Positions 200 to 15,093 of a stretch of DNA of 42,536 nt are shown piece by piece. The position numbers were made by a program, and so were the translations under genes. A model generated the notes under the pieces. That model saw only the letters and a list, made by a program, of their open reading frames with translations, did not search any database and had not been told where the DNA came from. Origin of the DNA: Alphaproteobacteria bacterium (GTDB lineage: Bacteria > Pseudomonadota > Alphaproteobacteria > Micropepsales > Micropepsaceae); contig CANFDA010000004.1 of the NCBI GenBank assembly GCA_947445215.1, positions 1 through 42,536 on the forward strand. The letters run 5' to 3'. Numbering within the stretch: the stretch's first letter is position 1; every line of letters starts with the position of its first letter.

Positions 200-1183
200 A
201 TGAAATGCGCCCTTCTCGCCCTAGCCCTCGTTGCCGGTCTCGCCGCCCCCGCTGCGGCCGCCACCAAGATCACCTTCGTCACCGACTGGAAGGCGCAGGC
301 CGAACATGGCGGCTTCTATCAGGCCGTGGCCGCGGGCCTCTATGCCAAGCGCGGGCTGGACGTCACCATCATCCAGGGCGGCCCGGAAGTGAACGTGCCG
401 CAATTGCTGCTGTCGGGCGCCGCCGATTTCGGCATCGGCTCCAACAGCTTCATCTCGCTGAACATGGCGCGGCAGAATTTGCCGCTGAAGGCGGTGATGG
501 CGGTGTTCCAGAAGGACCCGCAGGTGCTGATGAGCCATCCGCGCCGCGACATCAATTCGCTGGCCGACATGAAGGGCAAGCCGATCCTGATCTCGACGGC
601 GGCCACCACCAGCTTCTGGCCCTGGCTGAAGTCGAAGTTCGGTTTCTCCGACCGCCAGATCCGCAAATACACCCATAATCTTGCGCCGTTCATCGTCGAT
701 CCCAACGCCATACAGGAAGGCTACCTCACCTCCGAGCCCTTCACGGTGGAGAGCCAGGCCAAGTTCAAGCCGAAGATCTTCCTGCTGGCCGATTACGCTT
801 ATCCCGGCTACGCCAACATGGTGCTGGTGAGCCAGGCGCGCATCGACAAGGACCGCGCCACGGTGCAGGCCTTCGTCAACGCCACCCGCGATGGCTGGCT
901 GCAATATCTGAACGGCAATCCGGCACGCGCGAATGCGCTGATCAAGCAGCACAATCCGGACATGACCGATGCGATCATCGCCCAGGCCGTCGCCAAGATG
1001 AAACAGTTCAACCTGGTGCTGACCCGGGATGGCGCGACCTATGGCCTGGGCAGCATGACCGATGCGCGCTGGCAAACCTTTCACCAGACGATGGCGGCGC
1101 TGGGGCTTTATCCCAAGACGATGGATTACAAAAAAGCCTACGACCTTCGCTTCATCCGCCGCGCCGTGCAGAATTTCGAATAG
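200..1183 (+). CDS. ABC transporter substrate-binding protein, NMT1/THI5-like (SsuA/ThiY superfamily)
   Basis: Signal peptide MKCALLALALVAGLAAPAAA then KITFVTDWKAQAEHGGFYQAVAAGLYAKRGLDVTI; followed by ATPase and permease genes. Start moved to the internal Met at 200. Confidence 0.85.
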   Translation: MKCALLALALVAGLAAPAAAATKITFVTDWKAQAEHGGFYQAVAAGLYAKRGLDVTIIQGGPEVNVPQLLLSGAADFGIGSNSFISLNMARQNLPLKAVMAVFQKDPQVLMSHPRRDINSLADMKGKPILISTAATTSFWPWLKSKFGFSDRQIRKYTHNLAPFIVDPNAIQEGYLTSEPFTVESQAKFKPKIFLLADYAYPGYANMVLVSQARIDKDRATVQAFVNATRDGWLQYLNGNPARANALIKQHNPDMTDAIIAQAVAKMKQFNLVLTRDGATYGLGSMTDARWQTFHQTMAALGLYPKTMDYKKAYDLRFIRRAVQNFE

Positions 1184-1264
1184 TGAGGGGCGACCGGCAA
1201 GCCAGGCAAATCGGTCCAGTAGACCGATTTGAGCCACGAACGCCGCGAGTTTGAGCGAACGGCA
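1183..1264. repeat. Intergenic palindrome-containing repeat, copy A
   Basis: Perfect inverted repeat AAATCGGTC-CAGTA-GACCGATTT at 1208-1230; its reverse complement aligns over ~75 nt with 15016-15093. Confidence 0.7.
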
Positions 1265-1279
1265 AAGGACTAGAAGACA

Positions 1280-2038
1280 GTGCTACTTTCTGCAACTCAT
1301 CTCGCCAAACGCTTCCCCAACGGCGTCGCGGCGCTGGATGATCTTTCCTTTTCGCTGACGACAGGCGATTTCGTTTCGCTGCTGGGCCCATCGGGCTGCG
1401 GCAAGTCCACCGCCCTGCGCCTTATCGCCGGATTGCTGGCGCCCGACCGCGGCAACGTCACCTATGAGAACGGCAAGCCCGATATCGGCTTCGTCTTTCA
1501 GGAACCGACGCTGATGCCCTGGGGCGATGCCCTGGCCAATGCGCGGCTGCCGCTCGATCTCAAGAAAATGCCGCGCGCCGAGGCCGATGTGGCGGCACGC
1601 GCCGCGCTGGCGCGGGTGGGCCTGGCCGGGTTCGAGACAGCGATGCCGCGAGAACTCTCCGGCGGGATGAAAATGCGCGTCTCCATTGCGCGTGCACTCG
1701 CCGCAAAACCAAAAATATTATTGCTGGACGAACCCTTCGCCGCCCTGGACGAAATCACCCGCGCCTCGCTGAACGAGGATCTGCTTCGGCTGTGGCGCGA
1801 GCACCGCGAGCGTAGCAAGCAAAAAAACGAATCCCTGACCATTCTCTTCGTCACCCACAGCGTGGCGGAGAGCTGCTATCTCTCCGAACGAGTACTGGTG
1901 CTCAGCCCACGCCCCGGCCGCCTCACCGCCGACATCGCGCTGCCGAAACAGGCGGAGCGCGCGCCGGGCTTCCGTCTGTCGCCGCAATTTCTCGACTGCC
2001 AGCGCGCCGTGTCACAGGCGTTGGAGCGCGCGGCATGA
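1280..2038 (+). CDS. ABC transporter ATP-binding protein (nitrate/sulfonate/taurine type)
   Basis: Walker [10 protein letters not shown], signature LSGGMKMR, Walker [10 protein letters not shown]-loop VTHS. Confidence 0.92.
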
Positions 2039-14111: not shown

Positions 14112-14637
14112 TTTTTGCGGCGTCCATGACCCGCCGCGCCCGCAGATACATCTCGGCGCTGCGCAGCGTGAACAGGGCGGCGGTGAAGACAATCAGCGCA
14201 TCGGTGATCAGCAATACGTCCAGATGCCAGGCCTCGCCTTCCAGCCGCACGCCGGTGTTGATGCCGCTGCGCCCCAGGATCAGCGCCAGCATCACCAGCA
14301 CCGCCGCCTGCCCGCCCTGCACCATCAGCGTGCCATCCTCAGGGTGGACTTCGATCTTCATGGTGCGGGCGAAATACCAGCCCGCCACCGCGCCGATGGC
14401 ACCTGCCAAAGGCAGGATCACCCATTCACCCGGCGTGAAATGCCGCGAAACGCCGGGCACCTCCGCCCACAGCACCAGCGTCGCCACCAGCACCAGCACC
14501 ACCGGGCGTATCCACAGCCGCTTCAACTTGAGCGGTTGCGGCCGCGACAGCTTGCGCATGCGAAAATAGAGGATCGGCAGCAGCAGCAGCAGCGGCAGGA
14601 ACGGCAGAAAGGGCGCAAGCGGATGGCCGGGCGGCAT
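14104..14637 (-). CDS. Integral membrane protein, DUF1453/CcdC-like
   Basis: Several TM segments, FRMRKLSRPQPLKLKRLWIRP; overlaps the downstream chrA start and shares an ATG/stop junction with the DUF1491 gene. Confidence 0.6.
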   Translation of the reverse strand: MPPGHPLAPFLPFLPLLLLLPILYFRMRKLSRPQPLKLKRLWIRPVVLVLVATLVLWAEVPGVSRHFTPGEWVILPLAGAIGAVAGWYFARTMKIEVHPEDGTLMVQGGQAAVLVMLALILGRSGINTGVRLEGEAWHLDVLLITDALIVFTAALFTLRSAEMYLRARRVMDAAKNA

Positions 14638-14975
14638 CAGACAATGTCCTCGTCTACAAAAGCGCGGCCCTGGCGGTCTTCGATCTCCACGATCCACAGA
14701 TCGGGATCGAATTTCACCTGTTTGTCACACCAGGCATGCGCTGTATCTTCCGCGCTCCAGTCGCCCAGCGGCCGCGCCCAGGCCAGCTTGCCGTCACCCA
14801 TGCGCACCTGATTGAGCACCAGCGCGGTCTTGTCCAGACGCGACAGACGCAGGATCACAGCGCCCGCATCTTCCGCGCCCTTGCGGACGATGAAGGCCGA
14901 CGCGCCCGCGACTTCGGCGCGGCGGATGAGCGCGCGCACGAAGATCGCGGCCTTGAGACGCGGTGTCGATTCCAT
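14637..14975 (-). CDS. DUF1491 family protein
   Basis: RLKAAIFVRALIRRAEVAGASAFIVRKGAEDAGAVILRLSR...DPDLWIVEIEDRQGRAFVDE. Confidence 0.85.
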   Translation of the reverse strand: MESTPRLKAAIFVRALIRRAEVAGASAFIVRKGAEDAGAVILRLSRLDKTALVLNQVRMGDGKLAWARPLGDWSAEDTAHAWCDKQVKFDPDLWIVEIEDRQGRAFVDEDIV

Positions 14976-15015: not shown

Positions 15016-15093
15016 GCCGCTCGCTCAAGCTCGCAGCACTCGTCGCTCAAATCGGTCCACTGGACCAATTTGCCCGGCTTAGGCGTGCCTCGT
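15016..15093. repeat. Intergenic palindrome-containing repeat, copy B (inverted relative to copy A)
   Basis: GCCGCTCGCTCAAGCTCGCAGCACTCGTCGCTCAAATCGGTCCACTGGACCAATTTGCCCGGCTTAGG aligns with the reverse complement of 1183-1264; near-palindromic core 15049-15071. Confidence 0.7.

Follow-up and report, generated by a model that had tools for sequence, protein, structure and literature searches.

The window analysed here is a 42,536-nucleotide stretch of alphaproteobacterial DNA. Near its left end, a gene for an NMT1/THI5-like ABC substrate-binding protein (200..1183, forward strand; assigned by Pfam and orthologues), which ends ...AVQNFE-TAG, is followed by an ABC transporter ATPase gene (1280..2038, forward strand; Pfam) that in most relatives begins right at the stop of the preceding gene, without an element. 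In the window, a complete copy of a repeat element, copy A (1183..1263, forward strand), lies between the two; it matched an 82-position covariance model, built from copies of the element and used for genome searches, at 79.9 bits. A second copy, copy B (15016..15093, reverse strand; 70.3 bits), is complete but degenerate and carries the tag ACGA, and the start of a DUF1491 gene (14637..14975, reverse strand; Pfam and context mapping) lies 40 nt downstream of it.

The sequence-only reading of this DNA had described A and B as sharing about 75 nt, in opposite orientations and 14 kb apart, around a core inverted repeat that is perfect in A and near-perfect in B. We confirmed this observation: the core, AAATCGGTC-N5-GACCGATTT, occurs at 1208-1230 (0 mismatches) and at 15049-15071 (1 mismatch), with a chance expectation of 0.02 in the window and a count of two never reached by shuffles, and copy A used as a BLAST query retrieved copy B from the opposite strand with 86% identity over 65 nt (E 6e-16). 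However, the unit extends to about 82 nt, with a best extent of 1183-1263 for copy A, and its larger fold and stop-codon docking had escaped the sequence-only reading. A search of the window against Rfam gave no match above the gathering threshold, sub-threshold matches to a strong copy were at chance level, and an exact-sequence search of the open-access literature found no description of the palindrome.

Architecture and covariation of the element

Comparison across copies defined a unit that starts at GTGA and reads GTGA-GGCGC-GACCGGCNNNGCCGGGC-AAATCGGTCCAGTGGACCGATTT-GA-GCGCC-GAAC-GCCGCGAGCTTGGGCGAGCGGC, in which the GTGA tag is followed by an outer helix, P1, enclosing the hairpins P2 and P3, and then by a further hairpin, P4. 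P1 pairs GTGA-N5 with N5'-GAAC through G-C and T-A pairs plus tandem G.A mismatches, and P4 holds another GA/GA step. In copy A, where all parts lie on the forward strand, the tag (1183..1186; placed by sequence, ORF and gene-context mapping) is followed by the left strand of P1 (GGGGC, 1187..1191, pairing with 1233-1237), P2 (1192..1207), P3 (1208..1230), the right strand of P1 (GCCAC plus GAAC, 1233..1241, with GAAC opposite GTGA) and P4 with its internal GA/GA (1242..1263). P3 of copy A, AAATCGGTC-CAGTA-GACCGATTT, is the palindromic core noticed earlier. The tag is GTGA in 111 of 142 tabulated copies, the remainder being scattered variants, and the best-conserved part of the element is the P3 apex, GGTCC-N3-GGACC. 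In some copies (L038, L044, L059, L063, L164), hairpins with the common loop AGCGACAGCGT (e.g. GCGCTTAGCGACAGCGTAGCGGCGC) are nested inside P2 or P4, which gives the impression of another small palindrome family inserting into this one.

Copy A alone is not unusually stable (single-sequence folding energy z of -1.1 as RNA, which is not unusual, and -2.2 as DNA, which is only modest), and the case for the fold therefore rests on covariation. In an alignment of 30 copies made with MAFFT alone, which is free of the bias toward structure inherent in a model-based alignment, 93.5% of cells were paired and 14 pairs showed double changes, amounting to 76 double-change cells compared with a shuffle mean of 19.9 and at most 12 in slid-partner controls. 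The 71 copies in the model-based, and thus structure-biased, alignment gave 27 pairs with double changes and 303 double-change cells, with covariation in all 10 P3 pairs. In these 71 copies, about 21 G-U cells were found against about 2,040 standard pairs. A near-total lack of G-U is uncommon in RNA folds; since compensatory changes hardly ever pass through G-U, we infer that the pairing matters, and the fold is used, in DNA or in both strands.

These patterns bear on the suggestion that the palindrome is a protein-binding element. Strong conservation of the P3 apex would suit an operator, or a nucleoid or partition site, recognised as double-stranded DNA, but every one of the 10 P3 pairs changes provided that both of its sides change, and the whole 82-nt architecture is kept. 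The upstream genes belong to dozens of unrelated families and share no regulon. Because stem bases are free to change with their partners and the neighbours form no regulon, the operator reading is unsupported, and we regard a double-stranded binding site as very improbable.

Docking of the element on stop codons

Copies were mapped against genes predicted with a codon model (n = 151). In 57 of these, the stop codon of the upstream sense gene is the element's own TGA, tag positions 2-4 (d = -4; 55 strictly TGA), and in nine others the element's first base doubles as the final base of a stop (TA|G or TA|A; d = -1). Copy A is of the latter kind: its first G, at 1183, is the last base of the TAG stop at 1181-1183, so that the junction reads TAG-TGAGG. 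Only 20 copies start between 0 and 100 nt past a stop, and single positions past the stop therefore hold about 0.2 copies, compared with 57 at d = -4. Junctions at stops take the form GG|GTGA, GA|GTGA or TA|GTGA. GG or GA occupies positions -2/-1 in 48 of the 57 stop copies (expected fraction 0.21, from the last codons of all genes) and in 54 of 85 other copies (expected 0.15, from all dinucleotides), and the element thus gives the third base of the final codon, for Gly (GG|G) or for Glu (GA|G), plus the TGA stop.

As a gene caller could produce the d = -4 pattern artificially, with open frames simply stopping at the element's TGA, orthologues with and without the element were compared. They end at the same residue in rpoZ, gcrA, guaA, gltB, htpX, an ompA-like gene and ppx, and the artefact was rejected on the element-free orthologues of these seven genes. 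The rpoZ product ends DYEE either way, with GAG-TGA-element at filled sites and mostly GAG-TAG or GAG-TAA at empty ones, and that of gcrA ends GRM(T/V/A)G either way, with GGG-TGA at filled sites and GGC-TGA at most empty ones. Likewise, guaA (IEWE), gltB (AAE), htpX (GPWG) and ppx (ILVG) share their protein ends, and the ompA-like gene has GGG-TGA (one GGG-TAA) when filled and GGC, AGC or TCC followed by TGA, TAA or TAG when empty. Orthologues with and without the element thus end alike, and this comparison shows that the element replaces the last base and the stop and leaves the predicted protein end unaltered to the residue. A GTGA already present in the target was also considered; it is unsupported, as this position lacks GTGA in the ompA and gltB orthologues without the element. 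One convergent gene pair carries the element on the stop of htpX in two genomes (L179, L202), and in two others (L217, L220) it is the opposing SDR gene whose stop is occupied.

Distribution, gain and loss

The 1.92-Mb assembly of the source genome gave about 15 covariance-model matches and 10 BLAST matches, some of the latter being one palindrome counted on both strands. Across 69 genomes of the genus, copy number is bimodal, with 7-66 copies in 29 genomes and 0-2 in the other 40, and the 25 nearest rpoZ orthologues to an element-rich genome, by rpoZ similarity, all come from element-rich genomes. Fewer than 10 of the 151 mapped copies lie within a predicted gene, and 30 have an antisense gene on their left. 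The further copies that the sequence-only reading had proposed to look for therefore exist, and its description of the repeat as dispersed and intergenic agrees with a multicopy element found mostly between genes. Outside the genus, copies are rare: only four sampled genomes have any, with one or two each, and the core also occurs in named records, among them Devosia, Roseivivax, Jannaschia and Stagnihabitans. Several Rhodobacteraceae copies share one conserved site near a tRNA-dihydrouridine synthase-like gene, where a shorter version of the element lies about 500-770 nt from that gene in five genomes (L030, L033, L042, L048, L069); given this conserved site, the element seems to be vertically inherited in Rhodobacteraceae. 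Phage records gave no match to the element, and plasmids gave one, to the 35-nt core only.

To follow presence and absence, we used a tree of 25 genomes built from the rpoZ, gcrA and NMT1 proteins. The minimum number of changes was six for rpoZ, five for gcrA, four for guaA, three each for ompA and htpX, two for gltB and one for the copy A site, so that the patchy presence of the element requires at least 24 changes over seven sites. The copy A site is empty in all relatives inspected, including G006 at 86% identity, which sets it apart from a conserved cis-regulatory region, the alternative that had been held against a mobile repeat. The same stop carries different P2/P3 versions in different species, which points to insertion on more than one occasion, or to conversion. 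In the case of gcrA, the element is missing from G018 and G088, which are near-identical, and present in their near relatives G001, G066, G077 and G090, a pattern more suggestive of loss or replacement than of gain. At most sites the changes may therefore be gains or losses, and mobility is read from sequence comparison.

These observations also weigh on the possibility that the element is a functional 3'-UTR RNA, such as a stabiliser, an attenuator or a translation-termination element, kept by positive selection rather than spreading as a selfish repeat. Its sense orientation, exact overlap with the stop and strong fold conservation would be expected of such an RNA, as would its presence at rpoZ, gcrA and ompA-like genes in several species. 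Against this stand the dozens of unrelated upstream families, the patchiness among close species, the differing P2/P3 versions at one site, the 30 of 151 copies with an antisense left gene and the near absence of G-U pairs. We consider this explanation unlikely, though still worth weighing, and the objections to it leave room for a secondary function of the element.

At nine copies, a direct repeat that stops immediately before the tag reached a score of at least 10, where one such copy was expected. Examples are 21/21 nt within a tRNA-Gly gene, 63 bp where nadE begins (both gene names being readings of the sequence) and 52 bp abutting P4. Such long repeats vary from 21 to about 70 bp. Several of the copies concerned are tandem or diverged, and the stop-codon copies have no direct repeats, which weighs against the mobile-repeat reading. 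The target duplications that had been proposed as a check came down to a few long, variable direct repeats, with none at a fixed offset, and the short duplication of fixed length typical of MITEs was not found among the copies. The GT...AC termini, considered as possible MITE terminal inverted repeats, are the ends of P1 and not of the element.

Known repeat families and the search for a mobilising enzyme

GTAG REPs, a tagged super-family (for RAYT REPs see Nunvar et al., 2010; PMC2817692), are intergenic palindromes with a conserved tetranucleotide at one foot, located at gene 3' ends, and their termini are reported to serve frequently as a TAG stop (Di Nocera et al., 2013; PMC3733652). The present element resembles them in being an intergenic palindrome with a foot tetranucleotide, in lying at gene 3' ends and in supplying a stop from its terminus. 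Movement of a classic GTAG-type REP by a RAYT (TnpA_REP, a Y1 HUH transposase) would account for the 5' tag at the palindrome foot and for the location at gene ends, but the tag is GTGA rather than GTAG or GTGG, the stop is TGA rather than TAG, and a four-helix composite of about 82 nt, which includes tandem G.A mismatches, is much larger than a hairpin of 20-40 nt. Moreover, Y1_Tnp (PF01797; RAYT/IS200) is present in 3 of 29 element-rich compared with 15 of 40 element-poor genomes, and no transposase recurs beside the copies, whose recurring neighbour families are ordinary orthologous loci without a mobile gene. A RAYT-driven GTAG REP is accordingly improbable. Movement through RNA by a reverse transcriptase, which we hold to be more improbable still, would fit the direct repeats of 21 to about 70 bp, the constant orientation of copies with respect to genes and their insertion at stops in the mRNA sense, but not the distribution of RVT_1 (5 of 29 element-rich and 17 of 40 element-poor genomes), the absence of a poly-A-like tail, the stop-codon copies without repeats or the depletion of G-U, which points to DNA. 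Across the 69 genomes, neither of these two enzyme families, the ones searched for, tracks the element, and both are commoner where it is scarce.

CGTC REPs occur mainly in Alphaproteobacteria, near gene ends, with no dedicated transposase known (PMC3733652); compared with that description (CGTC tag, AT at the first stem positions, CCA tail), the tag, stem, loop and tail consensus of the present element all differ. Br-REP1 and Br-REP2 of Bradyrhizobium, also an alphaproteobacterium, are described in PMC5082802 as three-palindrome composites in 3'-UTRs whose flanking palindromes vary between species; their sequence is unrelated (CCGGAATCTCGAGATTCCGG), and the text consulted does not report stop-codon docking for them. 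In E. coli, a REP that lies no more than 15 nt from a stop can make ribosomes stall and reduce expression (Liang, Rudd and Deutscher, 2015, as cited in PMC5082802 and PMC12306157). Whereas those REPs lie near stops, the present element itself is the stop, and ribosome stalling is a possible effect here. In the broad sense of many dispersed palindromes mainly outside genes, the element qualifies as a REP (7-66 copies in 29 genomes), whereas the narrower sense of a short single hairpin excludes it. It is REP-like in behaviour, but departs from the GTAG class or REPtron in its tag, its size and the lack of an associated RAYT, and from the CGTC class in its tag features.

The copies keep a fixed strand and a conserved fold, bear a GTGA tag at the 5' end, are multicopy in one clade and are present or absent at orthologous sites. 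We think it probable that they form a family of REP-like, non-autonomous mobile DNA repeats, four-helix units of about 82 nt with stop codons as docking sites. The label "REP/MITE-like" given by the sequence-only reading was thus largely right, as the element is multicopy, mostly intergenic, patchy and palindromic with compensatory changes; the TnpA_REP partner suggested with it did not bear out. Such a family could spread by transposition of a folded single-stranded form, DNA or RNA, into sites after a GR dinucleotide. The excess at stop codons may reflect true targeting, or usefulness of the folded element there, beyond mere tolerance; possible uses would be protection of the mRNA 3' end or slowed termination. 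The mobilising enzyme may act in trans or have been lost, and to our knowledge no mover is known for alphaproteobacterial REP-like repeats. More tentatively, the repeat could have an insertion machinery that recognises CDS ends, so that it targets stop codons and brings its own stop while the protein stays intact; the enzyme involved would then belong neither to the Y1 HUH transposases nor to the reverse transcriptases.

Bacteria commonly carry REP-like repeats; exact docking on stop codons is what makes this family of real interest. Dozens of sites at which filled and empty orthologues share their last residue constitute a natural experiment, which could show how a selfish repeat inserts harmlessly at essential genes (rpoZ, guaA, gcrA) and permits direct testing of the effect of a folded structure atop the stop codon on termination and mRNA decay.

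Other repeats occur in the same places. At copy A's junction, three relatives (G008, G016 and G031; L264, L267, L269) carry a different insertion, the CGTC-like palindrome TGTCATGGCCCGC...GCGGGCCACCCAGGTGACA, which is a separate neighbour element. The ORF after it reads like a small GIY-YIG nuclease (YYVYILASKRNGTLYIGVTNDLARR) and may encode a partner enzyme for CGTC repeats. Further repeat families, CCTCCCTCGCTTCGCTCGAAGAGGGGCAAG...AAGAAAAGCTAAGCC and TCGCGCGTGCTCACGG...GCTCCGCGCGACG, lie 3' of the same genes that carry the element (rpoZ 3' flanks L233, L241 and L255; also L340 and L360).
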